The notes under the pieces: model-generated
What the model was told of the DNA's origin: nothing
The model's input: the letters and a program-made list of their open reading frames with translations, nothing else
The model's database searches: none
NCBI GenBank assembly: GCA_030699545.1
Contig: JAUYMC010000015.1
Coordinates: 1-36,120, forward strand
Length of the DNA stretch: 36,120 nt
From: Gemmatimonadales bacterium
GTDB lineage: Bacteria > Gemmatimonadota > Gemmatimonadetes > Gemmatimonadales > GWC2-71-9
Direction: 5' to 3'
Made by a program: the position numbers and the translations under genes
In this document: positions 2,411 through 33,905 of the stretch, piece after piece
How the letters are laid out: every line of letters begins with the position of its first letter
How positions within the stretch are numbered: the stretch's first letter is position 1

Positions 2411-5400
2411 TCGATGTCGTAGGCCGGATCCGCGGCCGCGCCCAACGTCCCCGCTGCATCGGCCCCGTACGCGAACGCCTGATGCGCCGACGACGCCACG
2501 TCGTAGGCCCGCGGTCGGATGGTGTCGCCGATGGACAGGCCATGCGGCGCAGCGAACGTCACCACGTTCCCGACGATGGACGTGATCGTCGTCTGGACGC
2601 GGGCCGCGAAGTTGCCGACCGGGATGCACGCCACCGCGTCGTTGACCGCGAAGTGTTGAACATCGGTCTGCACGGCGCCGGTGATCGGGTGCCGGTTGCG
2701 CGTGTAGTAGTTGGCCTCGACGATGACCACGTTCGGCGAGGTCGATACGGCCACGCGCAGCGCCGGCGCCCACCCGCTCCCGTTGATGCCGTAGGTGGTC
2801 GCGTGGATCTCGGAGATGCCCTCGCGCCAGTCGTGCGTCACCAGCAGGACGCGGGCGGGCGCATTGGTGATGCCGCGGCGCCCCGCCGCGTCCACCGCGT
2901 CGGTGGCGCTCAAGAGCACGACGCAGCCGGGGTCGATGAGGAGTGCATCGCCCGTCCAGATCCGCCCCTTCCATAGCCGCCTCGGTTGGCCGAACTGGAT
3001 CCGCAGTTGCTCGAAGGCGGGGGCCAGGACGCGGCGCGCGGCCTCCGGACTATCGGCGGGGACGTGTAGGCCGCGCAGCGCCAGCTCAAGCTCTCGACTC
3101 TCGCCCGTCTCGCCGATGCTGTCCCGGTCGTTGAAGGCGACCTTGAGCCCAGGGTCACCCGTGGCCGGGTCGTGATTCATCTCGAAGACGTAGCGGTTGA
3201 AGACGCGCTCATCCGTCCCGCTGGCCACGATGCCCGACCAATCGCCGGCCCCGATGGACGTCACCGCGTCGCGGGCGTTGTCGAGCCCCGTCGACACGAA
3301 CGCGATCCGTCGCGTCCCCGTCGTCGGATCGACGCGGGATGCGAGCACGCCACCAAGCACGCGAGCCATGGGCCCCAGGACGTCCTCGCCCGTGTCGCCG
3401 GCCCGGACGTCCAGCGACCACTTCGTCAGCTCCACGGGGATGGGGAAGTCCCAGAACGACCCAAGATCGACGTCGTCGTCGGTGAGGTTGAAGCCGAACG
3501 GCAGCACGTCGTAAGCGGCGTGGTTCGTCAACGTGCCCTGCCCCGAGTAGAGCAGCCGGAGCATGATGCGCCGCGGGTCCTCCTCACGGAACTCCACGAT
3601 CGGCGTGAACGTCGCTCGCTTCTCACCAGGCCAGTCGCCCATTGACGGGGCCAACTCGCGGTCGGCCCGCGCCACCTCGTAGCGGTAGCCCACCAACGTG
3701 GGCCCGGCGAACTCCTGTGCGCTGGAGACGACGCGGAATGATCCGCGCTTCTCCTCGCCCCCCTCGTACCAGACAGCTTCGAGCCGTTGCGGTACTGCGG
3801 TCAGGTCGAGCACGTCGGCCGAAAGGAGGATGTAGGTCTCGCCGGTCTGGTAGAACGTATCGGCGATGCCGCGGATCTCGTACCTATCCCACTCGCCACG
3901 GTCTCGCCGTTTGGTGACCCACTCGGTCCTTGTCCACTCGCCTTCGGCGTCCTCTTGATGCGAGCGGCCGCTGATGTCAGACGGCCGGGCGTCGTAGCGT
4001 CGCTCATCGTCCGGACGGGCGAAGTCGAGCGGATACCACAAGCGACGGTCGCCCCATACGTACATCCCCGGCCCACTCCCCGCGGAGAACCGCAGATCCA
4101 CGGGGGCCGGATAGTCCGTGTTCAGTCGGGCCATGAGAGCGGGCCGCGGCGTCGCCCCGTCGGCCACGATCTTGACGTCGGCCCACTGGCCCGCCGTCCC
4201 GAGATACGTTCCCGGCGTCCACCCGGTCGCGGCGTTGATGGCTTGGATCGCACCGTTCGGCCAGTCGACGAGAGACACGGCGCCCGCCGGTACCACGTCG
4301 GCCTGGATCGACTCTCGCAGGTCGGGATTCGATAGACCGTCGTTGTCGAGAACGCCCGGCGCGGCCAGCGGCGGGTTGATGAGGATCTGCGACGGCGGAC
4401 CGATGACGGTCCCGGTGATCTCGTAGGGCTCAGCGTGGCCATCGACGTCGATCAGGCCCTTGCGCGGATGACCGGCGGGCAAGGCGCCGCCGGAGTCGAA
4501 GACGCCCTCCACGCGGGCGCGAATGGACCCTTGGACGTTGATGAATGGATTGCCGGCGCCCGTGGCCAGCGCCCCAACGATGGACGTCGCGAAGACGCGG
4601 CCCGCCGGGTACTCCTGAACGTGCTCGACCGTCAGCGCGCTTTCTCCGTCGAAGACGTGGTAGCCCTGCGCCAGCTCGGCGACGGCATCTGCTCCGTTCT
4701 GGACGTCGCCCCCGAACGTCCCCGTCAGCAGCGCCCGCCATGGTTGGATGTAGAGGGTCACGGATAGGCCATCGTCGGCCAGTTGTGGCGACAAGCCGAT
4801 GAAGCCGCGCACGACGTCCACCGCATCGCTCAGGCCGCCCGAGTCGCGTTCGTTGGCGACCCGCAGCGTCGCCGGCCGGGTGCGCCAGTGGACCACCTCG
4901 CCGGTGACGTGCGGCTGCCAGCCCTGCTCAGCGTTGACCTTGTGGGCGTGGTGGCGAGTCCCCGCAGCGGCACGACTGACGTAGTTGAAGCGGTAGGGGT
5001 CTCCGAAGGCCCCGGTCCCGGCCGCGCCGTCTACCCAGAACGCCTCACGACCGATGTGGATCAGGCGCGGGAAGCCCCACCCCGAGACGTCTCGGTCCAC
5101 CTCGATGACCCCGCCGGGAATGACCGCGGAATGCGGGATGGACGTGATCAGCAGGGCGTCCAGCGTCGCGCCGCGGTTGCCGACGCGCATCAGTTGCGTC
5201 AGCGGGTCGGAGGCGTCGGTCAGGTCACCGCGGCTCGCCAGCGTCACCGTCACGCCCGAGTCGGACATGAAGCCCAACGACGGATCAAGCTCGGCCGTCT
5301 GTGCGGAGACTTCGGTGATGGCCTCGCGGTCGGTGTAGATGATCGCCGTTCCGGGTACGAGCGGCGTCGGCCAGTCGGTGCGCCGCGGGTCGCCTACCGA

Positions 5401-16240: not shown

Positions 16241-17242
16241 TCACGCGAAGGTGATGCGCCGCCCGTGGGCGGCGGATACGAGGCGGATCTCCTCCATGTA
16301 GCCGGCGATGAGCTGGCCGATGTAGCCACCGTCCCACTTCTCGCGCAGCTCCATGTCGCTGACGACCGGCCGCACGACCGCGACGTTATTCGACTTCCAG
16401 ATGCCCTCGGCGCGGCGCTGCCCGAGGTTCTTGCCGTCGCTCATGTGGCCGATCCACATCTGCGGCCCGTCGGTCTGCGTGTCCCAGATCGACCCGAGGG
16501 TGGTCGGCGAGATGGCCTGCGCGGACGTCTGCGCCATGGCCACGCCGATGTGGCCGAGCTTCAGGCTGGTCCACTTGCGACTCAGCCACGCGAGGACGTC
16601 GTCCTCGGTGAACAGCGAGCGGTCCACGGTCAGCGCCTGCGCCGCGATGATGTCGTCGTGGAAGCGCAGGTACTGCGCCGCGGTGTAGGACAGGATGACG
16701 CCGTTCGGGCGCGACCCCGTCGCCTCCCACACGGCGCGGTAGGCGTTGTCGATGTCGTTGATCGGCGTGCCGCCGCTGTTGGCCCACGAGGGCACGTTGT
16801 CGGCCGTGAAGTTCGCGCCGAAGAACATCTGCGCCGCCCGGTCCTCGCGGTCGAGCATCAGATCGTCCCAGAGCTGCGTGTAGTGCGCCTGCTTCACGTC
16901 CAGCGCCACATCCGAGGTCTTGACGTCGTAGACCTCGTCCAGCGGGAAGTACTCGGCGTAGTGCCGGCAGTCGTAGTCGACCGTCCCGTACTGGACGCCG
17001 CGGGCGGCCGCCGGCTCGGCGCCGCGGGGCCGCTCCAGCGTCGGCTGCCCGGGGCCGCGGCCGTGGAACGAGCCCGGCAGGGTGTAGGCGAACTTGCCGG
17101 TCTTCTCGCCTCCGACGCTGAACGCGGGCAGGACACGGTCCGCGATGAGATCGGTTTCGCGGTTCCGGTACGAGAGCATGAAGCCCTCGACCAGCCTTGC
17201 GACCGGTCGGAGGCCGGACGGCTGCGGATGGATGGCGGGCAT
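16241..17242 (-). CDS. Major capsid protein
   Basis: 333 aa MPAIHPQPSGLRPVARLVEGFMLSYRNRETDLIADRVLPAFSVGGEKTGKFAY...; AGGAGGT before ATG; follows protease and decoration genes. Confidence 0.82.
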   Translation of the reverse strand: MPAIHPQPSGLRPVARLVEGFMLSYRNRETDLIADRVLPAFSVGGEKTGKFAYTLPGSFHGRGPGQPTLERPRGAEPAAARGVQYGTVDYDCRHYAEYFPLDEVYDVKTSDVALDVKQAHYTQLWDDLMLDREDRAAQMFFGANFTADNVPSWANSGGTPINDIDNAYRAVWEATGSRPNGVILSYTAAQYLRFHDDIIAAQALTVDRSLFTEDDVLAWLSRKWTSLKLGHIGVAMAQTSAQAISPTTLGSIWDTQTDGPQMWIGHMSDGKNLGQRRAEGIWKSNNVAVVRPVVSDMELREKWDGGYIGQLIAGYMEEIRLVSAAHGRRITFA

Positions 17243-17260: not shown

Positions 17261-17677
17261 TCAGACGCTGCCGACCGCGTCGGTGTAGAACGGGTTGACG
17301 AAGGTCATGGCGTCGACGCCCGCCGCCGAATCGGCGGTCCCGACGTGGAACCCGAGGACCCAGCACGGCCCCACGGCCGCGACACAGGCGCCATTGGCGT
17401 CGCTCATGACCGCCCCGCCGGGCTGCACCACGCCGCCGTACTCGGCGTACGTGCGACCGTGCTGGACGACGCCGACGGCGCCGCCGACGCGGTCGTCCAT
17501 GTAGGACGCGACGCCGAGCGGGATCTGCGTCTCGGCCGTGGCCCGCTCGACCCGGCCAGCGTTGGCGCCGTTCGGGACCTGCCGGACGATCCGACCCTCC
17601 GTGATCGTCGTGGTCGGGTTCGCCGCGGCTGCGGCGAGGAACCCGTTGCTGAAGTTCGCTCCCGTTCCGATGGTCAT
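17261..17677 (-). CDS. Head decoration/stabilisation protein (DUF2190-like)
   Basis: MTIGTGANFSNGFLAAAAANPTTTITEGRIVRQV...LGVASYMDDRVGGAVGVVQHGRTYAEYGG; small protein between protease and capsid; ATGA overlap. Confidence 0.7.
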   Translation of the reverse strand: MTIGTGANFSNGFLAAAAANPTTTITEGRIVRQVPNGANAGRVERATAETQIPLGVASYMDDRVGGAVGVVQHGRTYAEYGGVVQPGGAVMSDANGACVAAVGPCWVLGFHVGTADSAAGVDAMTFVNPFYTDAVGSV

Positions 17678-18711
17678 CGCCGAACTCCCTTCAGCTTCTT
17701 CTCGGCCTCGCGCTGGAGGGCCAGGAACTCGCCGCTCTGGATCTTGCTCGTGTCGATCTTCCGCTCGGCCGCGAGCCGGAGGACCTCGTCGTACAGGCGG
17801 TCCTCGTAGCTCTTCGGCGCCCCGATGGCACCGCCGCCGCCGCCGTGGCCGTAGACCATGGTGTCCGGCCCCTCGGGGTTGGCGCGCAGCCGCTCGATCT
17901 CCATGTCGAACAGACCGCGGTCGGCCTGCGCCAACTTGAACATGTAGGTTCGACGCAGGCCGGGCGCGCCGTCGTCGCCGGGCGCGCCGGGCGCGTACAG
18001 ACCGGCCGCCTCGTAGTTGTCGAGCTCGCGCTCGAGCTTCAGGTCGGCCTCGCGCCGCTGCGCGGCCGCCATGAACTGCGTGGCGACGTGCTTGTGGGCC
18101 GTCAGCCGGTCGACCTCGGCCTTGAGCCGGATGATCTCCGGGTCCGGGCCCCGCGACGCCTGCACGTGGGCCGGGGCCGCAACCTGCGGCGCGCGGGTGG
18201 GCGCGGGCGTCGGGGTCGGCCGCGGGGCCGCGGGGGTGGGCGCGCGGACTCCGGCGTTCGGCGGCCGGCGCGACATCGTCTCGCGGTCGTCCGCGAGATC
18301 CTGGCTGGCCTTGAGCTGCGCGATCTGCTCGCGCAGCGCCTCGTTCTCCGCCTTCAGCTCCTCGATCGACATCTCGTCGGCCTCCGGTTCCTCGCCGTCC
18401 TCGGCCAGCTCCTCCGACCCGGAGCAGGCCGCGATGCACTTGTCGCACTCGGTCGCGCACGTCTCGCAGGTCGGGTTGTCCATGGTGCGGCAGACGGCCG
18501 CGCACGCCTTGCAGGCCGCGATGCACATCTTCACCGCCGGCGACTCCGGGTCACCGCCAGCGCCGATGAGCGCCTCGCAGGCCAGGATGCACGCCTCGCA
18601 CGCGGCCACGAGCGAGTCGGGGTTGGCGACCGACTCGGCCTCGGCGACGCACGCCTTGCAGGCCGCGATGCAGGACTCGCACGCGGCGATGATCTTCTGG
18701 GGGTCGGGCAT
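17674..18711 (-). CDS. Predicted nested in-frame scaffold protein beginning at the Cys-rich domain (345 aa)
   Basis: Internal ATG at 18711 (MPDPQKIIAACESC...) preceded by GAGGAGGT with 7-nt spacing (GAGGAGGTCTCCACGATG); parallels nested lambda C/Nu3 and Mu I/Z arrangements. Confidence 0.6.
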   Translation of the reverse strand: MPDPQKIIAACESCIAACKACVAEAESVANPDSLVAACEACILACEALIGAGGDPESPAVKMCIAACKACAAVCRTMDNPTCETCATECDKCIAACSGSEELAEDGEEPEADEMSIEELKAENEALREQIAQLKASQDLADDRETMSRRPPNAGVRAPTPAAPRPTPTPAPTRAPQVAAPAHVQASRGPDPEIIRLKAEVDRLTAHKHVATQFMAAAQRREADLKLERELDNYEAAGLYAPGAPGDDGAPGLRRTYMFKLAQADRGLFDMEIERLRANPEGPDTMVYGHGGGGGAIGAPKSYEDRLYDEVLRLAAERKIDTSKIQSGEFLALQREAEKKLKGVRR

Positions 18712-19290
18712 CGTGGAGACCTCCTCGGTCACGCTCTCGTCGTCCCGCTGCAATCTACAGCAACGAGACAGAAGTACACAATTCATAGAATTCTGCGCCG
18801 GCCTCGGGGTGAGGCTGATCGCGAGGATCTCAGCGCCGCCGATCCGCTCGCCCGTGCCGCGGGCGAACACGTCGCGAATCACCAACTCGGGGCTGATGTA
18901 GAGCGCCGATGACTCGGTCTCGTCGCCCAGGTCAAGCCGGTGATCCTCGACGAGGGACCGGCCGCGATCGGTGTAGACGAGGCGCCCCACGAGCCCCAGC
19001 CGCGGGTCGACGCGCATTGCCTCGACCTGGCCGACCGCGCTCTGGAGCTCGGGCGCGAGCGTGTCGTCGCCCGAGCCGTGGGCCCAGTCGACGGGGATCT
19101 GGCCGCCCTCGGCGCGCCGTCGCTCGAACACCCGGAGCAGGTCGTCGAGCAGATCGGCCGTGACCTCCAGACGCAGCTTCCCGGTGTCCGCGTCGTACAG
19201 CGGGCCGGGCCGGAGCAGATGCACCTCGCGATTATGGGCGGCTGGCGACGCCGGGCCCGCGGCCCGCAGCCGGATGCGCTGCTCGGTCAT
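17674..19290 (-). CDS. Mu I-like prohead protease fused to Cys-rich helical segment and C-terminal scaffold
   Basis: 538 aa; N-terminus LLRPGPLYDADTGKLRLEVTADLLDDLLRVF...IPVDWAHGSGDDTLAP...ALYISPELVIRD...EILAISLTPRPAQNSM resembles Mu-type protease; middle has 16 Cys; C-terminal coiled coil and helical scaffold. Confidence 0.78.
   Translation of the reverse strand: MTEQRIRLRAAGPASPAAHNREVHLLRPGPLYDADTGKLRLEVTADLLDDLLRVFERRRAEGGQIPVDWAHGSGDDTLAPELQSAVGQVEAMRVDPRLGLVGRLVYTDRGRSLVEDHRLDLGDETESSALYISPELVIRDVFARGTGERIGGAEILAISLTPRPAQNSMNCVLLSRCCRLQRDDESVTEEVSTMPDPQKIIAACESCIAACKACVAEAESVANPDSLVAACEACILACEALIGAGGDPESPAVKMCIAACKACAAVCRTMDNPTCETCATECDKCIAACSGSEELAEDGEEPEADEMSIEELKAENEALREQIAQLKASQDLADDRETMSRRPPNAGVRAPTPAAPRPTPTPAPTRAPQVAAPAHVQASRGPDPEIIRLKAEVDRLTAHKHVATQFMAAAQRREADLKLERELDNYEAAGLYAPGAPGDDGAPGLRRTYMFKLAQADRGLFDMEIERLRANPEGPDTMVYGHGGGGGAIGAPKSYEDRLYDEVLRLAAERKIDTSKIQSGEFLALQREAEKKLKGVRR
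18501..18525 (-). repeat. 25-bp exact intragenic repeat, copy 1 (TGCATCGCGGCCTGCAAGGCGTGCG)
   Basis: Identical to 18648-18672; both encode CIAACKAC. A 15-bp partial copy lies at 18424-18438. Confidence 0.85.
18648..18672 (-). repeat. 25-bp exact intragenic repeat, copy 2
   Basis: Identical to 18501-18525. Confidence 0.85.
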
Positions 19291-20666
19291 GCCTGCCTCC
19301 GTCGGGCCTGCGCGAAGAGTTGCGCCGCGGCGCCCGCGGGTGAGCCTCCGGCGCTGCGCTCCGACGGCGTGCGGTAGTGGTCAGGGTCGAGCGGCGAGGC
19401 GCCCATGCCCACGCGGATCATGTCCTCGATCTCGTTCGTCGCCGTGAAGACCCCGCAGCCGATGAGCGCGGGCAGTTCGGCGGCGAGAGCCAGGATGGGC
19501 CCCGGGTCCAACCGGCCGAAGGACAGCCGCGGCCGGAAGCGGGGATCGAGCGTGGGGAAGTTCCAGCGCAGCAACCGAGCGATCGTGCCCTGCCCTGGTC
19601 CATCGTCACCGCCGAGCACGTCTGCGACGTGGTCCAGGCCGGCGACCGCCATCTCCCGGAAACTGCTGATCTGCACCTCGCCCGCAGCTCGCCCGCCGGG
19701 GCCGATCACGCCCTGGCCGAGGAACTCCAAACCGAACCCGAACATGAACTCGCGGTTGCAAGCCGTGATGATCTCGAGCGGCTGCTGAACGTCGAGCACG
19801 CGCTCGCCGAACGTGCCCAGTTCCATGCCCGGCAGGTCCTTGACGTAGCTCGCCTCGCCAGCGACGTACCGCTCGGCGGCCTGCTCGACCTCGGTCGTCA
19901 GCGCGGTGATCTGGTCCGGGGTCAGCTCCGCGTCTTCAAGGACCCGCTTGTCGGTTCGGATCTTCGGCGTGGGCGTCGCCCACCGCTCCAGGCCGATGCC
20001 GACCTGCCGCAGCGCGTGGGCCTTGAGCTTGGACGCGAAGTGCAGGGGCCGGAGCATGCCGACGCCCTCGAAGTTGTCGCCCGTGCGCTGGTGCGTGAAC
20101 AACGCCAGCTTGTGCGCGGGGATGGGTTCGCCGCCCGCGCCGACGGTCGTCCAGTCCTGAGTCACCGACTCCAGCGCGCGGCCGTCGGCGCTCATGTTCC
20201 AATACCAATGCGCGCGCGGCTCCCGGTCCCGGAAGTCGATCCAGACCCGCCCCGCGTCGGGCGTGTAGACCTCCTCGAAGTAGCGGAAGCCCTCCAACTG
20301 GTAGCGGAGGAAGTGCCGGAGCATCCCCTTCCAGCCGCCACGTAGGTAGCCGCGCCCCTCGCGCGACATCCCGAACGCCTCGGACAGGAAGTCGCGGGCG
20401 CGGTGTGCTTCGCCCGGCCAGTCGTCCTCGACCACGAACTGCGCCTCGGCCGTGGTCTGCGTATCGAGCAGCGTGCGGGCGAACGCGGCGATGACCGCGT
20501 CGGTCCGCAGCATCTGGTCGGCGGCCTCCGCCCACGCCTGGCCCTGGAGATCGGTGTTGAGCTCGTACTCGGTGATCCGCCCGCCGTAGATGCGGGTGCC
20601 CGACGTGCCAAGCTCGCGGTACAGCGGTCGGCGGGTCGAGGCGGGCGTCTCGGTGGGGCTGCTCAC
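19287..20666 (-). CDS. Portal protein (DUF935 / Mu gp29-like)
   Basis: 459 aa; TEYELNTDLQGQAWAEAADQMLRTDAVIAAFARTLLDTQ...RYQLEGFRYFEEVYTPDAGRVWIDFRDREPRAHWYW...; ATGA overlap with the protease gene. Confidence 0.82.
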   Translation of the reverse strand: MSSPTETPASTRRPLYRELGTSGTRIYGGRITEYELNTDLQGQAWAEAADQMLRTDAVIAAFARTLLDTQTTAEAQFVVEDDWPGEAHRARDFLSEAFGMSREGRGYLRGGWKGMLRHFLRYQLEGFRYFEEVYTPDAGRVWIDFRDREPRAHWYWNMSADGRALESVTQDWTTVGAGGEPIPAHKLALFTHQRTGDNFEGVGMLRPLHFASKLKAHALRQVGIGLERWATPTPKIRTDKRVLEDAELTPDQITALTTEVEQAAERYVAGEASYVKDLPGMELGTFGERVLDVQQPLEIITACNREFMFGFGLEFLGQGVIGPGGRAAGEVQISSFREMAVAGLDHVADVLGGDDGPGQGTIARLLRWNFPTLDPRFRPRLSFGRLDPGPILALAAELPALIGCGVFTATNEIEDMIRVGMGASPLDPDHYRTPSERSAGGSPAGAAAQLFAQARRRQA

Positions 20667-20721: not shown

Positions 20722-23121
20722 CTATGGGCCGGAGCGGGACGACGCGGCCCAGCCCCTCCGTGGGGTGGGGCGGGTGGGCGAGACGCCAGGCTTCAGGCCG
20801 GCGCCGCCGAGATGTAGAGACGGAGCATCGGCGGGGCGCTCGCCGTACCAGTGCCAGACGATCGCGTCATAGCGCAGGGCGTCGCAGTTCGAGACGAGCA
20901 CGCCGTTGGCGAAGTACTCGTGCTCGCCGTCAACGGTCAGGTTGTAGACGTCGCCTCGCCCGGCCCGTCGCACGCCCTGCACACGCTCGGGAGCAACGCG
21001 CGGTCCGGGTGTAGCGGTTGACGATGAAGGCGGCACCGCATTCGACGCACCGGCGCTCGACGTCATCAACGCCCGCGTCACGTCGCCACTTGGACTTGCA
21101 TGGGTTGGAGCAGAAGCGCGCCCCGGCGCCGCGCTTGAGGGTCTCGAAGCTGCCGCCGCACCGCTCACAGGTACGTCGTTCAGGTTCACGCCCGGCCCAT
21201 GTTCTGCGCCCGTGCTCCCGGTGCCACTCTCGCCCGGCGTCGCTTCGGTACCACTCCGTAGCGAGCGGCCTGATTCGCTGAAGGTGCGCGGCCCGTTTTG
21301 CGCAGTTCTCCTCGCATGCGTAGCACTCCTCAAGGTGGGCGCGCGTGTGCTCAGCCCCCAACACGCACTCGAGGTTTGTCGCGTCGTTGTTGAGCGGATC
21401 GCCGTCGACGTGGTGGATGACGTGCCCGGCGGGCACGCATCGCCCGTTGTGACGTTCCCAGACGGCAACATGTAGGTATTGAGGGCGACCACCCCACCCG
21501 GCGGATCTGAAGTAGACCCGATCGCTTCGCTGGGTGGCGTCAGGGTATCTCCTGAACGTGACCCCATGAAACTCGACTTCGGCGCTGCTTGGCCTCTCCA
21601 TACCGTAAGTGTATCGTATTGCGTCAAGGACGCAAGCGGAACGCGGCCCCTTTCGGCCGTCCATACCGGGTGGTCCTGCGTCCCAACGAGACGTATCCCC
21701 GACTCCGTCTCGACCTCCCACAGCGCCGCGTCTTCGCCCGTTCGGGCCGCGGCCAGCACATCGCGCAGTCCGGCCCGCGTCCATACGCGGTCGCCCACAC
21801 GAAGCGTCTCGATAGCCGCCGGGCCGTACTCCGCCTCCACGAGCGTCCCGGCCGGGAAGCAGTGATGATCGTGGACGTCGTCCTTGAGCGGCAGATCGCC
21901 CCCCTTCTCTGGGTAGCGATAGCCCTCGATGGCCTTGCGCAGCGTCCGGCCCGCCCGGCGCTCGCCGTCGTCCCACAGCTCGCGCGTGATGACCACGCGG
22001 CGCACGCCGTCCGGGCCGAGGATGCGGCGACGCAGGCGCTCGATGCCGTTCGGGATGTGCCGCTTGATCGGGTCCGTCTCGTAGCGCAGGCGCACGCCGC
22101 AGCCGATGGGCCGCGGCTGGCCGACGAACCGGATGGAGTCGATCCCCGTCTGGTCGTTGACCGCCTTCCCCGCCGGATCCCCGGCGCCAGCCTCGATGCG
22201 CACGCCCCAGCGGTCGGCCTCGGCGTTGATGGCCCGGCACAGTTCCGGGACGAGGCACTCGTCGGGCGCCACCTCGGCAAACACGACGTCGACCTGCTGG
22301 CCGTTGATGTCGGCGCTCTGAATCAGGATGACGGCCGGGGAGCGACGGCCGAAGTCAATCGCCATCCGAACCGGACGCGCGGGGTCCGGCCGCCAGCCGT
22401 CCAGGATGTTGCCGTCCGGCCACGACGACGGCTCCCAGCAGTCAAGGACCTGGCCGACCGGAGGGCGCGGCCGGTTGTTGATCATCGCCTCGTATCGCTC
22501 GGGAGACAGGACCGAGCGGGCGCGCTTGAACCAGTCCGGGGAGAGGTTTGCGGCGTTGACGTGCGACGTCGCGCGCAGGACGAGGCCGCTCGTCCCCGCC
22601 TGCTCCGCCCGCTTCACCCACCACGCGCCAGCGACAGGCAGGCCGGCGACGCAGATGGAGATCGGCGCGCCGCCCGCCGGCGTGCGGATGCGGCCTACCA
22701 GAGCCTCCAGCGCCTCGGGACGCAGCGCCTGGCCCTCGTCGATGAGGCCGAGCGAACCATTGACGCCCTCGAGCGGGTTGTTCTCCTGCGCCCGCGTGCT
22801 GGCCCGGTAGTACATCCGCAGCCAGAGGCGGAAGCCGTTGGGGTGGCGCCAGTAGTACTTGCTGGGGTCGGCGTAGAAGGTCCAGCCGAACCCGCGGAGC
22901 AACTGGTCACAGACGGGCTGGACGACCGACTCCAGCCGGGAGCGGGTGTCGGTGACCCATACCCCGGCGTCGCCCGGCCGCTGATCACCCGCGAGAGCGG
23001 CGATGAGTCCGAGGCCGAACGTCTTGCCGCTGCCCCACCCGGCCTGTACGGCGGTCAGGTAGCGGCCCTGGACGTGGGCCGCGACCATTTGGGCCTGGAG
23101 GGTGTTGAGGTCGAGGTTCAC
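20722..23121 (-). CDS. terL: Terminase large subunit interrupted by an intein (799 aa precursor; ~474 aa after splicing)
   Basis: Walker-A-like VQAGWGSGKTFGLG, SLGLIDEGQAL (Walker B-like), nuclease-domain FGRRSPAVILIQ, and DVHDHH|intein|CDALRYDAI, matching the conserved D-H-x-x-DALRY region of TerL. Confidence 0.87.
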   Translation of the reverse strand: MNLDLNTLQAQMVAAHVQGRYLTAVQAGWGSGKTFGLGLIAALAGDQRPGDAGVWVTDTRSRLESVVQPVCDQLLRGFGWTFYADPSKYYWRHPNGFRLWLRMYYRASTRAQENNPLEGVNGSLGLIDEGQALRPEALEALVGRIRTPAGGAPISICVAGLPVAGAWWVKRAEQAGTSGLVLRATSHVNAANLSPDWFKRARSVLSPERYEAMINNRPRPPVGQVLDCWEPSSWPDGNILDGWRPDPARPVRMAIDFGRRSPAVILIQSADINGQQVDVVFAEVAPDECLVPELCRAINAEADRWGVRIEAGAGDPAGKAVNDQTGIDSIRFVGQPRPIGCGVRLRYETDPIKRHIPNGIERLRRRILGPDGVRRVVITRELWDDGERRAGRTLRKAIEGYRYPEKGGDLPLKDDVHDHHCFPAGTLVEAEYGPAAIETLRVGDRVWTRAGLRDVLAAARTGEDAALWEVETESGIRLVGTQDHPVWTAERGRVPLASLTQYDTLTVWRGQAAPKSSFMGSRSGDTLTPPSEAIGSTSDPPGGVVALNTYMLPSGNVTTGDACPPGTSSTTSTAIRSTTTRQTSSACWGLSTRAPTLRSATHARRTAQNGPRTFSESGRSLRSGTEATPGESGTGSTGAEHGPGVNLNDVPVSGAAAASRPSSAAPGRASAPTHASPSGDVTRALMTSSAGASNAVPPSSSTATPGPRVAPERVQGVRRAGRGDVYNLTVDGEHEYFANGVLVSNCDALRYDAIVWHWYGERPADAPSLHLGGAGLKPGVSPTRPTPRRGWAASSRSGP
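20887..21861 (-). other. Intein (325 aa) within TerL
   Basis: Starts CFPAGTLVEAEYGPAAIETLRVGDRVWT (block A), GTQDHPVWT (block B TxxH), ends GDVYNLTVDGEHEYFANGVLVSN (blocks F/G) followed by +1 Cys. Confidence 0.88.
20930..21601 (-). CDS. HNH homing endonuclease-like ORF with two C-terminal Cys4 motifs, encoded out of frame inside the intein
   Basis: Frame offset from TerL; MERPSSAEVEFHGVTFRRYPDATQRSDRVYFRS...YLHVAVWERHNGRCVPAGHVIHHVDGDPLNNDATNLECV (HNH core), CERCGGSFETLKRGAGARFCSNPC and CVECGAAFIVNRYTRTARCSRAC. Confidence 0.82.
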   Translation of the reverse strand: MERPSSAEVEFHGVTFRRYPDATQRSDRVYFRSAGWGGRPQYLHVAVWERHNGRCVPAGHVIHHVDGDPLNNDATNLECVLGAEHTRAHLEECYACEENCAKRAAHLQRIRPLATEWYRSDAGREWHREHGRRTWAGREPERRTCERCGGSFETLKRGAGARFCSNPCKSKWRRDAGVDDVERRCVECGAAFIVNRYTRTARCSRACAGRATGRARRRLQPDR

Positions 23122-23776: not shown

Positions 23777-24664
23777 GTGGAGAGTATCCCCTACGAGATC
23801 CGAGGCGCCGAGCGGCGCCACGGCACGACGAAGATCGAATGGACCGAGGCCACGTGGAATTGGATGATCGGGTGCACCCCGGTCTCCGCCGGCTGCAAGA
23901 ACTGCTACGCGATGCGCATGGCGTTCCGCTGCGCGGAGATGGGGCAGGAGCCCTACCGCGGGCTCACGACGCCCGGCCCCCGTGGGCCCGTGTGGACCGG
24001 CGTCATCCGCGAGAACAGTGACACCGTCGTCTACCGCCCGCTCGGCTGGCGCGCGCCGCGCCTCATCTTCGTCAACAGCATGTCCGACGTGTTCCACCCG
24101 AACGCGCCGGATTGGCTCCGCGAGATCGGCTTCGACATCATGCTCGAAGCGCCCCAGCACCGCTACCAGGTGCTGACCAAGCGCCCCGACCTCATCGCCC
24201 CATACCTCGCCCGCTCCGGCCGGCGCATCCCCGACTCGGTCTGGCTCGGGGCGACGGTGGAGGACGAGCGGGTCGCGGAGCGCGTCGACCACCTCCGCGC
24301 CGCCCCGGCCCGCGTCCGCTTCCTGTCCGTGGAGCCGATGACCCGCCGCCTCGGCCGGATCGACCTCAGCGGCATCCACTGGGTCATCACCGGGGGCGAG
24401 TCCGGGCCGGGCCGCCGCCGCATCGACCCCGAGTGGGTCCGCGAGGTCCGCGACGTCTGCGCTGAGCAGGGCGTCGCGTTCTTCCACAAGCAGTGGGGGC
24501 ACTGGAGCGACAACCCGCTCCTGGCCCGCTGCCCGGCGGGCGAGCCGCCCGCCGAGTGGATCAAGCGCGTCGACCCCCACGGCAAGGGTGGCGCCATCCT
24601 TGACGGCGTGCTCTGGCGCGAGTTCCCGGAGCGCCTCGACCATCAGGCGGCCCTCGCCGCCTGA
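23777..24664 (+). CDS. DUF5131 / phage Gp37-Gp68 family protein (three-Cys motif)
   Basis: KIEWTEATWNWMIGCTPVSAGCKNCYAMRMAFRC...LIFVNSMSDVFHPNAPDWL...HRYQVLTKRP...VWLGATVEDE...RFLSVEPM...WVITGGESGPGRRRIDPEWVREVRDVC are hallmark segments; AGGAGGA 6 nt before GTG. Confidence 0.9.
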   Translation: MESIPYEIRGAERRHGTTKIEWTEATWNWMIGCTPVSAGCKNCYAMRMAFRCAEMGQEPYRGLTTPGPRGPVWTGVIRENSDTVVYRPLGWRAPRLIFVNSMSDVFHPNAPDWLREIGFDIMLEAPQHRYQVLTKRPDLIAPYLARSGRRIPDSVWLGATVEDERVAERVDHLRAAPARVRFLSVEPMTRRLGRIDLSGIHWVITGGESGPGRRRIDPEWVREVRDVCAEQGVAFFHKQWGHWSDNPLLARCPAGEPPAEWIKRVDPHGKGGAILDGVLWREFPERLDHQAALAA

Positions 24665-25836
24665 GCACCCGTCTCCGCCTCCCAGCGGGCGACGATAACG
24701 TCGCACCGCTCGGGGTCCAGTTCAATCGCGCAGGCCCGCCGCCCCATCCGCTCCGCAGCGATGATGGTCGTCCCCGTGCCGCAGAAGGGGTCAAACACCA
24801 TCTCCCATTCGGGCGTCCAGTGGGTCAGGTGCTCGATGAACAGATCGACGGGCTTGCCGTGCCGTTGCAACCGACTGAACGGCCGCTCGCCGTCGACAAG
24901 GTGCTCGCCGATACCGATCTCGACGATCGACGGGAAGGTGAGCCGCTTATCATCCGGGCATTTCTTGACGCTTCCGACCTGAACGATCAGGGCGTGCGCG
25001 TGCGCCACCTGAGTCGTCGCGCTTCGGTGATGGGTCGGCCGGACGATCACCCGCTCGAACCGAAACCACTCATCGGGAATCAGGCGAATCACCTTCGCAG
25101 GGCCGAAGACGATGCTTGGGTCCGCGATGTGTTGCGAATAGGCAGCGTCGCCCACCTCGTAGGGCGGATCGACGATGGTTACACCGGGGACATCGCCAGC
25201 GCAGACCCGCGCAATGTCGTCCGCCGATGTGCCATCTCCGCACAGGAGCCGGTGCGCGCCCATGAGCCAGACGTCGCCGCGCTTGGTCACGACGTGCAGG
25301 GGCGGCTCGGGTACATCATCTCCGCCCCCGCTTGTGCCTCCGCCTTCGTCGTCCAGCGCTGCAAGCTCGCCCAGCCGCAACTCCTCGTAGAGCGCCGCGT
25401 CGTCCGCCTCGATCTCGGCGAGGATCGCGTCAAGGTCGTCGGTGAACTCGCCCGCGCTGTGGGGGTTGTTCGCCGCGACGTTGGCCGCCTTCTCCTTCGC
25501 CTCCGGCCACCGAACGCCGCGGATGCGGAAGCGGCCGGACGGCGTATCGAGCCAGCCCCAGCACTCGGGGCCGGACTCCGTGTCGCGCCACTCCTCTTCC
25601 CACTGGACGTCACCGGGCGCGAACGCCTCCAAGATGGGCGTGCGCTGGTGGCCGGTGACGAGGCGCTGCGTCTCGAAGTTGTAGACGATGCCGGAGATGT
25701 CGCCGAACGCGACGACGCTGGCACTGAGGCCGGCGCGCGCCTCGTCGGTGATGCGGCGCGGGTTGCGCTCCCAGCCCTTCAATTTCGTGGGCGGCGTCTC
25801 GGCGGCGTCTCGGCGTCTACGAGTCATGGCCTCCAT
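24643..25836 (-). CDS. ParB/Srx-domain DNA methyltransferase (N4/N6 type)
   Basis: N-terminal WERNPRRITDEARAGLSASVVAFGDISGIVYN...LVTGHQRTPIL (ParB-like); VTIVDPPYEVG (DPPY) and MVFDPFCGTGTTIIAAERMGRRACAIELDPERCDVIVARW (FxGxG). Alternative ATG at 25827. Confidence 0.88.
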   Translation of the reverse strand: MEAMTRRRRDAAETPPTKLKGWERNPRRITDEARAGLSASVVAFGDISGIVYNFETQRLVTGHQRTPILEAFAPGDVQWEEEWRDTESGPECWGWLDTPSGRFRIRGVRWPEAKEKAANVAANNPHSAGEFTDDLDAILAEIEADDAALYEELRLGELAALDDEGGGTSGGGDDVPEPPLHVVTKRGDVWLMGAHRLLCGDGTSADDIARVCAGDVPGVTIVDPPYEVGDAAYSQHIADPSIVFGPAKVIRLIPDEWFRFERVIVRPTHHRSATTQVAHAHALIVQVGSVKKCPDDKRLTFPSIVEIGIGEHLVDGERPFSRLQRHGKPVDLFIEHLTHWTPEWEMVFDPFCGTGTTIIAAERMGRRACAIELDPERCDVIVARWEAETGAQAARAA

Positions 25837-25867
25837 CCTACCATACGCGGCCTTGACGCCGCCCCGC

Positions 25868-26305
25868 CTACGGCTCGCCCACCATGAACGCGAGCGCCGT
25901 CGACTGACGCACGACCTCGGGGTCAAGGGCGCCGACCACGGCGCGCAGCTTGGACAGCGCGTACCGGGCTGCCCTCCAAGCGCCCCGGTCCATCGCGTCC
26001 GCGACGGCCCCGATAGCGGACTCGACGCACCGCGGGTGCTCCGACCTCGGCAGAGGCGGCGCGCCCCCGGCGAGTTCGTCCAGCGTCAGCAGGTGCCGCC
26101 CGTCCACGGCCGCCGTCGTCGGATCGGTGCCCGCCGACGTCCCGTAGCACGCAGCCGCCTCCTCCAGCGGCAGCGACCACAGGCCGGGGCCGACAGCGCG
26201 CCCCGTCTCGACCTCGAAGACGCGGCCGACGCAGGCGAACGGCACCTCGCCCTTGGCCACGCCGAGCACCAGACCGTCCTCACGAACCGTCACACGTATC
26301 CGCAT
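25868..26305 (-). CDS. Hypothetical protein
   Basis: 145 aa; GAGGAGGAGAAACG directly before ATG 26305. Confidence 0.7.
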   Translation of the reverse strand: MRIRVTVREDGLVLGVAKGEVPFACVGRVFEVETGRAVGPGLWSLPLEEAAACYGTSAGTDPTTAAVDGRHLLTLDELAGGAPPLPRSEHPRCVESAIGAVADAMDRGAWRAARYALSKLRAVVGALDPEVVRQSTALAFMVGEP

Positions 26306-27393: not shown

Positions 27394-27493
27394 CGTCGGC
27401 CTCCATCTCCACGTACGGCCCGCAGACCTCGCACGCCGCCACCCCCGCCAGCGAGACGCACATCGCCCACACTTCATACATCCCCACCGTCAT
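27380..27493 (-). CDS. Small CxxC-containing ORF (37 aa or less)
   Basis: MTVGMYEVWAMCVSLAGVAACEVCGPYVEMEADDDPR; fills the gap between neighbours with overlapping starts and stops. Confidence 0.35.
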   Translation of the reverse strand: MTVGMYEVWAMCVSLAGVAACEVCGPYVEMEADDDPR

Positions 27494-28433
27494 CCGTCTC
27501 GCACATGCCCCACCGCATACAGCCGTCGGTCGCGGCGTTGTCGAGCAGGTCGAACATCGGCATCTGACGCCCGCCGCGGTCCGTCTGCGCCCACGCAACC
27601 ACGTCGTCGATGCTCATCACGCCGTTGCGGGCCGGGCCCTGGAAGTAGCAGCGCTCGTGCCGTGGAGAGGCGGGGTCGCGCAGTTCGCGCTCCAAGTCCT
27701 CCAACTCCTCGTCGCCGGCGATCTTCTCCGGCCATGGCTTCTCCGCCCGCGCGGTCGATCGCGCTCGCGCCCCGGCCGTCATCTCGATCTCCAGCGCGCG
27801 GATCATGTCGATGCGCTCCGGGTCGTCGCGAGCCACCAGCGCGATCTCCGCCTTGCGCGCGTGGATGCAGGGCCAGCAGCCTACCCGGTTGGCGCCGCGC
27901 AAGTACAACGGGTTCGGCGCGATGCCGTGCCGCCGGTGGATCTCGATGACCTGCTCCTCGGTCCAGCCGATGAGCGGCCGCCAGATCATGCAGTCGATGC
28001 CGCCGCGCTGGTCCGCGGCCCACCGCTCCCACTCGGGCAGTTGCGCCCGCGCGGCCGACTCCAGGCGGCGGATGCCGACGGCGTTGACGACCGTCCCACC
28101 CGTCTCCTCGATCCGCCGGATCGGGTACTCGCGGATGGGCAGCACCTTCAGGCGTTCGGTACACCAGCGGCGCATCCGGCTCGGAAACATCACCTTGCGC
28201 CGGATCCACTCGACCATCCCACCCTCGGGCGAGCGCAGCCACCGGATGGGGCCGATCGCTGGGTCGAGCACGTCGCGGAGGTAAGTGTAGGTGTCGGGGT
28301 GCTCCCAGCCGGTATCGCAGAACACCGCCTCGTAGGCGATACCCTGCTCGCGCAGGTGCAGCGCCATCGCCGTCGAGTCCTTGCCGCCTGAGACGCTGAC
28401 AACAACAAGACGCCCATCAACATGTTCGTTCAC
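27474..28433 (-). CDS. PAPS reductase family PP-loop ATPase-like protein
   Basis: VVVSVSGGKDSTAMALHLREQGIAYEAVFCDTGWEHPDTYTYL... (SGGKDS P-loop), RRWCTERLKVLPI, RVGCWPCIHARKAEI; GGGAGGT 6 nt upstream of GTG 28433. Confidence 0.87.
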   Translation of the reverse strand: MNEHVDGRLVVVSVSGGKDSTAMALHLREQGIAYEAVFCDTGWEHPDTYTYLRDVLDPAIGPIRWLRSPEGGMVEWIRRKVMFPSRMRRWCTERLKVLPIREYPIRRIEETGGTVVNAVGIRRLESAARAQLPEWERWAADQRGGIDCMIWRPLIGWTEEQVIEIHRRHGIAPNPLYLRGANRVGCWPCIHARKAEIALVARDDPERIDMIRALEIEMTAGARARSTARAEKPWPEKIAGDEELEDLERELRDPASPRHERCYFQGPARNGVMSIDDVVAWAQTDRGGRQMPMFDLLDNAATDGCMRWGMCETDDGGDV

Positions 28434-28434
28434 T

Positions 28435-28494
28435 TCACACCTCCCCCGGGTATCCGAGCCCGGCCAACCACCGCACCGCGTCGGCGCTACCCAT
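28435..28494 (-). CDS. 19-aa mini-ORF MGSADAVRWLAGLGYPGEV
   Basis: ATG 28494 overlaps the end of the RusA-like gene (ATGGGTAG); stop lies 1 nt before the downstream GTG (TGAAGTG). Confidence 0.35.
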   Translation of the reverse strand: MGSADAVRWLAGLGYPGEV

Positions 28495-29074
28495 CAGCCA
28501 TCTCCACCGTCACCTCAACCCGCGGCGCGCCACGGTCCACGCCTCGCCACTCGATGCGCTGGCCAACGACCACCGTGCAGGCGTCGTCCGCGAGCACCTC
28601 AGCGCCCGCCTTCACGAGCCCGTCGAGCACCGTCTTCAGGATGTTGTCGAGGTCGCGGCGCCGTCGGTCCGGCGTCCAGACGTCCACCGACACGCGGCAC
28701 GGGCCCTGCCCCGCCCGGACGCCAGCGGCGCGGGCAGCGGCAGCGACGCGCGCCTTGTAGCGCCGCGTCTCGGGCGGGGTGTAGGTCCCGCTGCCAGTAA
28801 CCCGGGGCCGCTGCATCGCGACGGGCTTGCCGAGCACAACGAACGACCACGACGTCTCGGGCCGCGCCGCGCCCTCACCCCGGGCCATCGGGTCGCGACG
28901 ACGCCCCCGGGCAAGCCGCTCGTTGCCTGCATCAACCACCGCGCGGGCCTTCGACGACAGGCCGTCGGCGCGGCGGGCCTCCGCGGCTTCCAGCGCCGCC
29001 ACGAGGGCCGCGGGCGGGCGGGGGTCGTGGACGAGACCGAGGGCGCGGGCCAGTACAGTGGCGGTCGGCTTCAT
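28487..29074 (-). CDS. rusA: RusA-like Holliday junction resolvase
   Basis: FVVLGKPVAMQRPRVTGSGTYTPPETRRYKARV... RRRRDLDNILKTVLDGLVKAGAEVLADDACT: RusA signature (DxDN...LDGL...DD). Confidence 0.87.
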   Translation of the reverse strand: MKPTATVLARALGLVHDPRPPAALVAALEAAEARRADGLSSKARAVVDAGNERLARGRRRDPMARGEGAARPETSWSFVVLGKPVAMQRPRVTGSGTYTPPETRRYKARVAAAARAAGVRAGQGPCRVSVDVWTPDRRRRDLDNILKTVLDGLVKAGAEVLADDACTVVVGQRIEWRGVDRGAPRVEVTVEMADG

Positions 29075-29352
29075 GCGGCGGCCCTCTCGGCGTGGTAGGC
29101 GTCGATGTAGTCGTCCACATCGTCGGGCCAGAGCACTCGGCCTACGTCGGGGCCGGCGAGCACCACGATGCAGGCCGGCCGCCACGTCGTGACGCTCATC
29201 AGCGTGCCGCTGCCCCACAACGCCGGCCCCTGTGGTGCGCGGGCTTCCCGCAGCGCCTCGCGGGCCTCGCCCCAGGAGGGGACGACGGCAGCAAGTCGCC
29301 AGAAGCAACCCTGCTCGAGGCGGGCGATAGCGAAGGCGGCGGGGCGGTTCAC
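29071..29352 (-). CDS. Hypothetical protein
   Basis: VNRPAAFAIARLEQGCFWRLAAVVPSW...; GTGA overlap at 29349-29352. Confidence 0.62.
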   Translation of the reverse strand: MNRPAAFAIARLEQGCFWRLAAVVPSWGEAREALREARAPQGPALWGSGTLMSVTTWRPACIVVLAGPDVGRVLWPDDVDDYIDAYHAERAAA

Positions 29353-29615
29353 GACGCGATCTCCAGTCCAAGGCCCATCTGCACCGCTTCTGCGAGGGGC
29401 CGCGACCTGACGCCAGTGCACGACGGGCACTTCATCCGCAACACCCTCCCGACGACGACCTCAACGAACCCAGCCCCGATCACAGCCTCGGCACACGCGG
29501 CGCTCCGGTCGCTCTCGTTCGGCGGACCCAGCCCGGCGTACCGGCGCCCGCCTTCAGCCCGGCACCAGTCGCAAGCCGCCGCGGTCCAACGTCCTTCATA
29601 GTCGACGATGATCAT
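29349..29615 (-). CDS. Small Zn-ribbon-like protein
   Basis: MIIVDYEGRWTAAACDWCRAEGG...LRMKCPSCTGVRSRPL; two CxxC motifs. Confidence 0.65.
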   Translation of the reverse strand: MIIVDYEGRWTAAACDWCRAEGGRRYAGLGPPNESDRSAACAEAVIGAGFVEVVVGRVLRMKCPSCTGVRSRPLAEAVQMGLGLEIAS

Positions 29616-31959: not shown

Positions 31960-32258
31960 CGTTCGTCCTCCGTCCGTGTTCTTCCCGGGTGCCCGTCGTC
32001 GACGGACTGCTCCATCCCTACCTGCACCCGTGGCATCGGGCGCATCTCGATGGGCCGCGCGATGGCGCGGAAGTTGGCTTCCCGCCCCTCGGGGACGTGG
32101 ACGCGGAGGAAGGCCGACACCCCGCGGCCCATGCGCTTCGACAACCGCATCGAGCTCGTCATCGTCGACTCGGTCTCGATGAGCGCGCGCATGCACCGCT
32201 CCAGGCCCACGCGCGTCGTGTCGATGTCCACGTCCCAGGGCCAGCGCTTGGGGGTCAT
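31956..32258 (-). CDS. Hypothetical protein
   Basis: MTPKRWPWDVDIDTTRVGLERCMRALIETESTMTSSMRLSKRM...; ATGA overlap with both neighbours. Confidence 0.62.
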   Translation of the reverse strand: MTPKRWPWDVDIDTTRVGLERCMRALIETESTMTSSMRLSKRMGRGVSAFLRVHVPEGREANFRAIARPIEMRPMPRVQVGMEQSVDDGHPGRTRTEDER

Positions 32259-33175
32259 GCCGCCTCCTTCAGTCGTCCCAGCAGCCACGCGACGACAGGC
32301 GGGCAGACCGCGTTGCCGAGCAGATGGACGGCATCCTTGTGGCGCGTCGGCAGCCGGTAGCCGGCCGGGAAGCCCATGCCGTCGCGGATCTCATCACGGG
32401 TCAGCATCCGCATCCGGTCGTCGTCGACGAGCGCGAACCGGTCACGGGTAGGCAGCGTTCCGAGCGGCCGGGACAGCGGTCGACCGCCCCGCTCGCTCTT
32501 GTAGTAAGCGACGAGGAAGCGGTCGCCGTGACGTGCCCGCCCCGCACAGACGCGCGCCAACGTCGCAGCCGCCCGGCCCGGCCGCTCGATCGGAGACCAC
32601 CGGCCCGCCTCGAAGTCGACCACGTCAGACGCCGGGCGATGCTCCGCCGCAGGCGCGCCGAGATGCAGCGGCACCGTCGAGCGCGCGCCGACGATGAACA
32701 GGCGGCGCCGATGCTGGGGCACACCCACGTCGGCAGCGTCGATGACGTGCTCGGCCAGCGAGTAGCCCAGCGCGTTCATCGCCATGCGCCACGCGGGGTA
32801 GAGCTTCCAGCCCTGGAACTCGGGCACGTTCTCGACCACGACGAACTGCGGCGCATGGAACTCGGCGCACGACACCACCGCCCACGCCGTCGAGCGGCTG
32901 GAGTCGTGGTGCGCCTGATCCTTGCCCCGAGCCCGGCTGTGGCCTTGGCAGCACGGCGAGGCGAGGAGGATGTCATGCGCCGGCACGCGAGACCAGTCGG
33001 CGAGGTGAAGGTCCTGGCAGGCGTGCTCGACCTCGGGGTGGTTCGCGGCGTGCGTCTCCACCGCGAGCGGCCAGTGGTTCGCCGCCCACAGCACGCGGAC
33101 GCCCGCCGCGGCCGCGCCCTCAGTGAAGCCGCCGGCGCCGGCGAACAGGTCCACGGCAGTCGCCCACGATCTCAC
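32255..33175 (-). CDS. dcm: C5-cytosine DNA methyltransferase
   Basis: AVDLFAGAGGFTEGAAAAG (motif I), ILLASPCCQGHS (PC motif IV), FVVVENVPEF (ENV motif VI), VPQHRRRLFIVG (QxRxR motif VIII), LLGNAVCPPVV (motif X). Confidence 0.92.
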   Translation of the reverse strand: MRSWATAVDLFAGAGGFTEGAAAAGVRVLWAANHWPLAVETHAANHPEVEHACQDLHLADWSRVPAHDILLASPCCQGHSRARGKDQAHHDSSRSTAWAVVSCAEFHAPQFVVVENVPEFQGWKLYPAWRMAMNALGYSLAEHVIDAADVGVPQHRRRLFIVGARSTVPLHLGAPAAEHRPASDVVDFEAGRWSPIERPGRAAATLARVCAGRARHGDRFLVAYYKSERGGRPLSRPLGTLPTRDRFALVDDDRMRMLTRDEIRDGMGFPAGYRLPTRHKDAVHLLGNAVCPPVVAWLLGRLKEAA

Positions 33176-33672
33176 GCCCCGCCCTCCCGCGCCCGCCGCC
33201 GGCGCTCCGCGCTCACAGCCTCGTCCCACCGCGTCCCGTCCAACACCACGCGCCACCCCGCAGTCGCGAGCAGGTCCGCGGCGAAGACCCGGTGGCACCG
33301 TCCCGCCGCAGCCTCCGTCTGCGAGCAGGCACAGATGAGCGTAGCGCCGTCCTGCACGGGGCCGAGGTCCCTCGGATCGGCCCACAACTGCGCCATCAGC
33401 GCGCCGGGGCTCAGGTCCGCAACCACGCCTACGACGTAGCGGCGGCGGTACTCGCCGAAGTCGATGACGCCGAGGCGGATGGCGTCCAGGTCCTCGACGC
33501 GGGGGACGAGAGCGGGCACGAGGCCGTCCCCGCCCTCCCCGTAGTGGTGGCGCGGGCGGACCATGATGCACCAGACCTCGCCCGGGCCGACGCAGCGCTT
33601 GGACCGCTCCGAACCGCGGGCGGCGGCCCGCACTGTTGCTGCGTTGGTGAGGTAGACGGTCGGCGCGCTCAC
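33172..33672 (-). CDS. DUF488-like protein
   Basis: ATLICACSQTEAAAGRCHRVFAADLLATAGWRVVLDG resembles the CxC...CHR motif of DUF488-type proteins. Confidence 0.5.
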   Translation of the reverse strand: MSAPTVYLTNAATVRAAARGSERSKRCVGPGEVWCIMVRPRHHYGEGGDGLVPALVPRVEDLDAIRLGVIDFGEYRRRYVVGVVADLSPGALMAQLWADPRDLGPVQDGATLICACSQTEAAAGRCHRVFAADLLATAGWRVVLDGTRWDEAVSAERRRRAREGGA

Positions 33673-33905
33673 CGCCTCCCCGCCTTCCGCGCCTTGCGGG
33701 CCGCCTTCGCGCGGGCCCGGCTGCGCTCGCGCTTCCGGGCCGCCTCGCCGTCGTGGGCGCCGAGACGGAGCTTCGCGCTGTGCCCGCGGTCGCCGTCGAC
33801 CCCGGCGGGCGGGTCGTCATCGAGCATGGCGGGGCCCGTCAGGCCGGCCATCGCCGCGAGCACGCCCGCGGTCCGCGGGGTGCGCCTCGTCGGTGTGCCC
33901 TTCAT
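33669..33905 (-). CDS. Small highly basic protein
   Basis: 78 aa ending RKRERSRARAKAARKARKAGRR; ATGA overlaps. Confidence 0.5.
   Translation of the reverse strand: MKGTPTRRTPRTAGVLAAMAGLTGPAMLDDDPPAGVDGDRGHSAKLRLGAHDGEAARKRERSRARAKAARKARKAGRR

Follow-up and report, generated by a model that had tools for sequence, protein, structure and literature searches.

Does a phage capsid scaffold carry a copper-storage protein at its start, and if so, what might such a domain do during head assembly? The question is raised by a 538-residue reading frame in the genome of a Gemmatimonadales bacterium, in which a cysteine-rich segment had been described, from the DNA letters alone, as a bundle resembling copper-storage proteins (Csp; DUF326) within a phage capsid protease/scaffold. 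Scaffolds are usually viewed as inert, disposable helical proteins. A metal-storage bundle at the start of one would connect the chemistry of metals or thiols with the building of the capsid. It would predict something easily measured, copper in procapsids, and could serve as a natural model for designing protein shells loaded with metal. The window analysed here is one whole contig of 36 kb, from a genome assembly of 402 contigs.

The reading frame and its neighbourhood

Profile searches place the 538-residue frame between the genes for a Mu-type portal and a major capsid protein, all on the same strand (Table 1). This position fits the original reading of a capsid protease/scaffold gene; the protease profiles match only weakly. 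The head maturation protease family phrog_328 is hit at 1.4e-4 by the whole frame and at 0.0068 by residues 1–165 alone, while PF10123 gives 0.18–0.22 on the protease part, under its cut-off. A protease identity for the N-terminal part is probable, mainly on the grounds of gene order. The scaffold body has weak matches, of leucine-zipper type and to phrog_4341.

Evidence that the frame is coding was needed because naive cysteine-spacing patterns in other viral contigs were matched mainly by antisense, low-complexity frames, together with a few free-standing Csp3s. Here the coding evidence is good, and the reading frame is real. Its start overlaps the upstream portal gene by 4 nt, and a single, uninterrupted frame runs from the protease to the scaffold. 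GC3 in the cysteine-rich domain is gene-like at 0.98, and TGC is the codon of all 16 of its cysteines. Cysteine makes up 0.3–1.4% of residues in the portal, capsid, small head and tail tube proteins, the head and tail components that could be recognised in the window. No copper genes were recognised in the window.

Table 1. Features of the reading frame and adjacent head genes, in window coordinates.
Feature	Position	Strand	Evidence
Predicted 538-residue fused head-maturation protease / Csp-like domain / scaffold	17674..19290	-	open frame, phrog_328 1.4e-4, gene order
N-terminal part (residues 1-178), probable Mu gpI-like maturation protease	18757..19290	-	phrog_328, PF10123 sub-cut-off
Scaffold body: acidic linker, coiled coil, Pro/Ala-rich linker, second coiled coil	17674..18420	-	helices in full-length model
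Csp-like 16-Cys four-helix bundle (residues 194-290), predicted	18421..18711	-	AlphaFold2 pLDDT 90.3; Foldseek top matches all Csp-type
Helix 1, domain Cys 11, 14, 18, 21	18637..18702	-	AlphaFold2 model; helical wheel
Helix 2, domain Cys 38, 41, 45	18562..18618	-	AlphaFold2 model; helical wheel
Helix 3, domain Cys 63, 67, 70, 74	18484..18540	-	AlphaFold2 model; helical wheel
Helix 4, domain Cys 82, 85, 89, 92, 96	18421..18474	-	AlphaFold2 model; helical wheel
25-nt exact repeat TGCATCGCGGCCTGCAAGGCGTGCG, copy 1, helix 1	18648..18672	-	
25-nt exact repeat TGCATCGCGGCCTGCAAGGCGTGCG, copy 2, helix 3	18501..18525	-	
AGGAGG Shine-Dalgarno-like site	18720..18725	-	8 nt before internal ATG at 18711
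Mu-type portal protein	19287..20666	-	PF06074 2e-21
Small head protein, probable decoration protein	17261..17677	-	phrog_673 (label: head scaffolding) 4.1e-10
Major head protein	16241..17242	-	phrog_1005 1.4e-20

A probable internal start at the head of the domain

The first codon of the cysteine-rich domain is, exactly, the ATG at 18711. The AGGAGG that precedes it is the longest Shine–Dalgarno match among all in-frame starts of the 538-residue ORF. Because the domain begins at the start codon with the frame's best Shine–Dalgarno sequence, it probably forms the N-terminal end of a scaffold nested in the frame, and is also carried by the longer protease form, rather than being an insert in the protease; the original prediction had it embedded in the protease/scaffold.

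In the Mu-type layout, the protease gene gpI contains the scaffold gpZ nested in the same frame. The present locus likewise follows a Mu-type portal gene and would join a probable protease to a scaffold in a single frame, with a strong internal start signal. It differs in that its scaffold would begin with a cysteine-rich bundle; to our knowledge, known Mu-type scaffolds lack such a bundle.

Shortly 5′ of the internal start, positions 18751–18840 are clearly lower in GC content (0.57) and GC3 (0.63). This low-GC stretch could keep the ribosome-binding region open, or it could be the scar of a fusion.

A predicted four-helix bundle lined with cysteines

As first described, the domain holds 16 cysteines in 97 residues, with residues 194–290 corresponding exactly to positions 18711–18421. 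The motif CxxCxxxCxxC had been assigned to all four segments. This was close: helix 1 has precisely that motif, but helices 2 to 4 carry other variants of the 3/4 step (CxxCxxxC, CxxxCxxCxxxC, and CxxCxxxCxxCxxxC, respectively). Successive cysteines are 3, 4, 3, 17, 3, 4, 18, 4, 3, 4, 8, 3, 4, 3, and 4 positions apart, and never 1 or 2. When 16 cysteines were placed at random over 97 positions, the observed count of i+3/i+4/i+7 pairs was matched in 2 of 100,000 placements. On helical wheels of the predicted helices, the cysteines of every helix lie on a single face, 126–177 degrees from the charged face (for helix 1, the vector length is 0.85 and the angle 177 degrees), and thus opposite the charged residues or at a wide angle to them.

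The DNA encoding helices 1 and 3 contains an exact repeat of 25 nt (TGCATCGCGGCCTGCAAGGCGTGCG), which leaves room for internal duplication. A 15-nt part of this repeat occurs again in helix 4, at 18424–18438.

AlphaFold2, run on the domain plus seven residues as a single sequence without an alignment, gave four helices with a pLDDT of 90.3 and a pTM of 0.79, with the caveat that the cysteine pattern may be recognised from training. In a model of the full-length protein, the protease part is not resolved and the four helices of the domain are still present, at a pLDDT of about 61–88. A Foldseek search of the PDB with the domain model returned Csp1, Csp3, or close relatives (PA2107) at all of ranks 1–31, with a probability of 1.00 for nearly all of them. 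Query TM values for these ranks are mostly 0.68–0.83 (lowest 0.57), and the first non-Csp matches have values of 0.6 or less. The E-values are modest (best 0.006), as is expected for bundles this short.

The AlphaFold model of the domain is thus a confident four-helix bundle whose best PDB matches are Csp-type. The model, the Foldseek matches, the cysteine register against real Csps, and the helical-wheel geometry all agree with the Csp-like reading given at the outset. Taken from these predicted structures, the segment is very probably a Csp-type, thiolate-lined four-helix bundle.

Among characterised proteins, Csp1 (5FJD/5FJE) gives the best Foldseek matches (TM 0.78–0.83), but it has an export signal, is free-standing, and shares 19% identity with the phage domain. 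The Csp3 proteins (BsCsp3, 5FIG/6WKT; MtCsp3; SlCsp3; and RkCsp3, 6ZIF) share the four-helix bundle with inner-face cysteines at 3/4 spacing, and in BsCsp3 (5FIG) the cysteine spacing across helix 3, the loop, and helix 4 is identical to that of the phage domain. In contrast to these free proteins, the phage domain is fused in frame to a scaffold, has about 25–32% identity to them, and scores below the family cut-off. It also lacks several of the conserved cysteines of classical Csp3s, as well as their three-histidine motif at the mouth of the bundle: the loop reads RTMDNPT, and there are zero histidines in the domain. The same motif is missing from RkCsp3 (PMC10155185), which, like the phage domain, has 16 cysteines.

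Relationship to bacterial Csps

The original prediction had named the lack of a profile match to DUF326/Csp as a result that would speak against it, and on this point the outcome is mixed. Curated cut-offs are missed: the domain scores 12.9–14.6 bits against Pfam DUF326 (cut-off 20.4) and 6.7 bits against NCBIfam TIGR04401, the Csp1 family (cut-off 100). A purpose-built profile of 37 Csps does match.

How far such similarity extends beyond the cysteines was gauged with shuffled controls. Aligned directly with BsCsp3, the domain reaches a score of 117, whereas shuffled versions reach 52 ± 8; shuffles with the cysteines held fixed score nearly as high as the domain. For a profile of seven classical Csp3s, 85 of 1000 cysteine-fixed shuffles did equally well, so cysteine spacing alone explains the similarity; the order of the helices has hardly any effect on the Csp3 profile score. 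The wider profile, in which 30 of the 37 Csps are from the host phylum, gives 63.8 bits. This score was reached by none of 1000 composition shuffles, by 4 of 1000 cysteine-fixed shuffles, and by 12 of 1000 that were both helix-aware and cysteine-fixed; with composition correction, the latter two counts become 17 and 33 of 1000. Against the best single cellular Csp (L166), the domain beats all 300 members of both cysteine-fixed control sets. Fifteen of its 16 cysteines sit in columns where cysteine is conserved among Csps. Similarity beyond the cysteines is modest with respect to the 37 mostly host-phylum Csps and absent with respect to the seven classical Csp3s. Judged on these sequence comparisons, the domain probably descends from a captured bacterial Csp (cytosolic copper-storage protein).

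Csps in the host phylum and in other phages

Relatives of the whole protein, the domain, the portal, the capsid, and the terminase were absent or very distant in the viral contigs, species genomes, phages, and plasmids searched. For the domain, BLAST negatives are uninformative because the search masks the cysteine-rich sequence through SEG and composition correction: BsCsp3 is matched at 45.8 bits without them, and there is no full-length match with SEG on. A search for the domain in homologous protease genes had been proposed earlier as a check; in the sole distant capsid relative, the scaffold has no cysteine-rich bundle. Scaffolds of this kind therefore do not generally contain the domain.

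No Csp was found in the host genome or in sampled relatives of the same genus; in the host phylum, Csps are present in 53 of 399 genomes. A second DUF326-like spot in the host genome looks like a chance match within another gene.

A P22-like viral contig (IMGVR_UViG_3300020202_000179) carries a Csp3 gene at 3845–4342 (+) that scores above the DUF326 cut-off. Its neighbours are a P22-type portal gene on one side and the genes for scaffold and coat on the other, and it is encoded on the opposite strand. Like the present domain, it is found beside portal and scaffold genes, but it is a separate, unfused gene and a clear member of DUF326. With this separate Csp3 among head genes, the link between Csps and phage head genes occurs twice. 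The 635-kb uncultured phage LR745206.1 has a free-standing Csp-like gene at 2917–3303, with 19.2 bits to DUF326 and hence near the cut-off; it too is phage-borne, but as a separate small gene.

Other candidates were set aside. A match in Xanthomonas phage Rb1 (0.07) does not lie in a head-gene context, and Acinetobacter phage records with a Csp look like bacterial DNA, in which the gene is surrounded by host copper genes. Also noted, in a 168-kb viral contig (IMGVR_UViG_3300031521_000011), was a 545-residue open frame, from 11456 (+), with a very long run of cysteine-rich repeats. The literature searched contained no account of a phage protein with a Csp in it, and a Csp-like bundle in a capsid scaffold is apparently new to description.

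A possible role in head assembly

The overall reading that we consider reasonably likely is that a captured Csp-type bundle stands at the N-terminus of the scaffold as a soft-metal-loaded, possibly oligomerising module. A bacterial cytosolic copper-storage protein would have been captured and fused to the N-terminus of a phage capsid scaffold. In the manner of Mu-type head operons, two products would be made, a long protease–bundle–scaffold protein and an abundant bundle–scaffold protein from the start at 18711, and the procapsid would receive both. Cu(I) would bind to the 16 core thiols in the reducing cytosol, and the bundle, tetrameric in Csps, might help scaffold chains to oligomerise. At maturation, the protease would cut the bundle free. 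A role in assembly or in copper tolerance may be envisaged for such a module.

Each chain of a Csp with 13–19 cysteines takes up about 13–20 Cu(I) by way of thiolates that point inward, and Csp3s bind Cu(I) in the reducing cytosol (PMC5171941, PMC10155185). With its 16 cysteines and no histidine motif, as in the RkCsp3 subgroup, the domain is therefore likeliest a Cu(I)-capable bundle that would enter the procapsid with each scaffold chain. It is likely to bind Cu(I) tightly in vitro. That copper handling is the function under selection can be put forward tentatively, as a somewhat doubtful proposition. A more far-reaching version is improbable: that procapsids carry hundreds of Cu(I)-filled bundles, that copper loading or release is functional in assembly, maturation, or infection, and that this is why independent phages have recruited Csps into their head modules. 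More generally, the locus suggests that, in some phages, the head under assembly takes in a metal- or thiol-binding module.

It is possible, though unlikely, that the captured Csp fold is no more than a compact domain for oligomerisation or spacing, with metal binding as a by-product and no role for copper. Such a structural exaptation would suit scaffolds, which act through oligomerising helices, and would fit the tetrameric state of Csp3s (PMC5171941); the lack of a Csp in the host genome and its sampled relatives also gives no sign of local copper storage. However, all 16 cysteines are kept on the inner face, 15 of them in Csp-conserved columns, when a structural bundle should lose many unless its capture was recent. 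The retention of inward cysteines thus favours a thiol function, with the qualification that a recent capture would look identical in sequence.

A history without common descent, in which an amphipathic Cys/Ala helix was duplicated within the scaffold and came to resemble a Csp, appears improbable. It would account for the repeat shared by helices 1, 3, and, in part, 4, for a profile score nearly indifferent to helix order, and for a likeness to classical Csp3s that is mostly cysteine spacing. Against it, the non-cysteine residues also resemble those of host-phylum Csps (0 of 300 controls against L166; 4–33 of 1000 against the profile), and the spacing of helices 3 and 4 and the Csp-type topology match too.

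Still less probable is that the ligand of the core thiols is a different soft metal (Zn, Fe-S, Cd, or Ag), or that these thiols form a disulfide redox switch that gates assembly or maturation. Cysteine-rich helices can hold other thiophilic metals, and a sulfur gene of PAPS-reductase type lies in the same window. Weak matches to 4Fe-4S profiles (PF13187, 0.039 on a fragment) point the same way, but they fall below the cut-off and are unlisted in a scan of the 97-residue domain. The helical 3/4 spacing is Csp-like, unlike that of a ferredoxin or zinc ribbon, and Csps hold their cysteines reduced, with no disulfides (PMC10155185).

That the domain is an artefact, either another gene read out of frame or an assembly chimera, is very improbable, since the mostly antisense, low-complexity cysteine patterns of other viral contigs and the lower GC3 at 18751–18840 are countered by a gene-like in-frame GC3, a single frame, same-strand portal and capsid genes whose ends overlap, and a fold predicted with confidence.

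Other genes on the contig

Apart from the head genes, several features of the window can be recorded. The large terminase gene, at 20722–23121 (−), is split by a probable intein spanning approximately residues 420 to 750 (Hint_2 2.2e-6; Intein_splicing 4.6e-4). Genes of PAPS-reductase type, for a RusA resolvase, for a C5-cytosine methylase, and for an N6/N4 DNA methylase lie at 27474–28433, 28487–29371, 32255–33820, and 24643–25926 (−), respectively. A gene for a family 2 glycosyltransferase, at 3–1832 (−), occupies the end of the contig.
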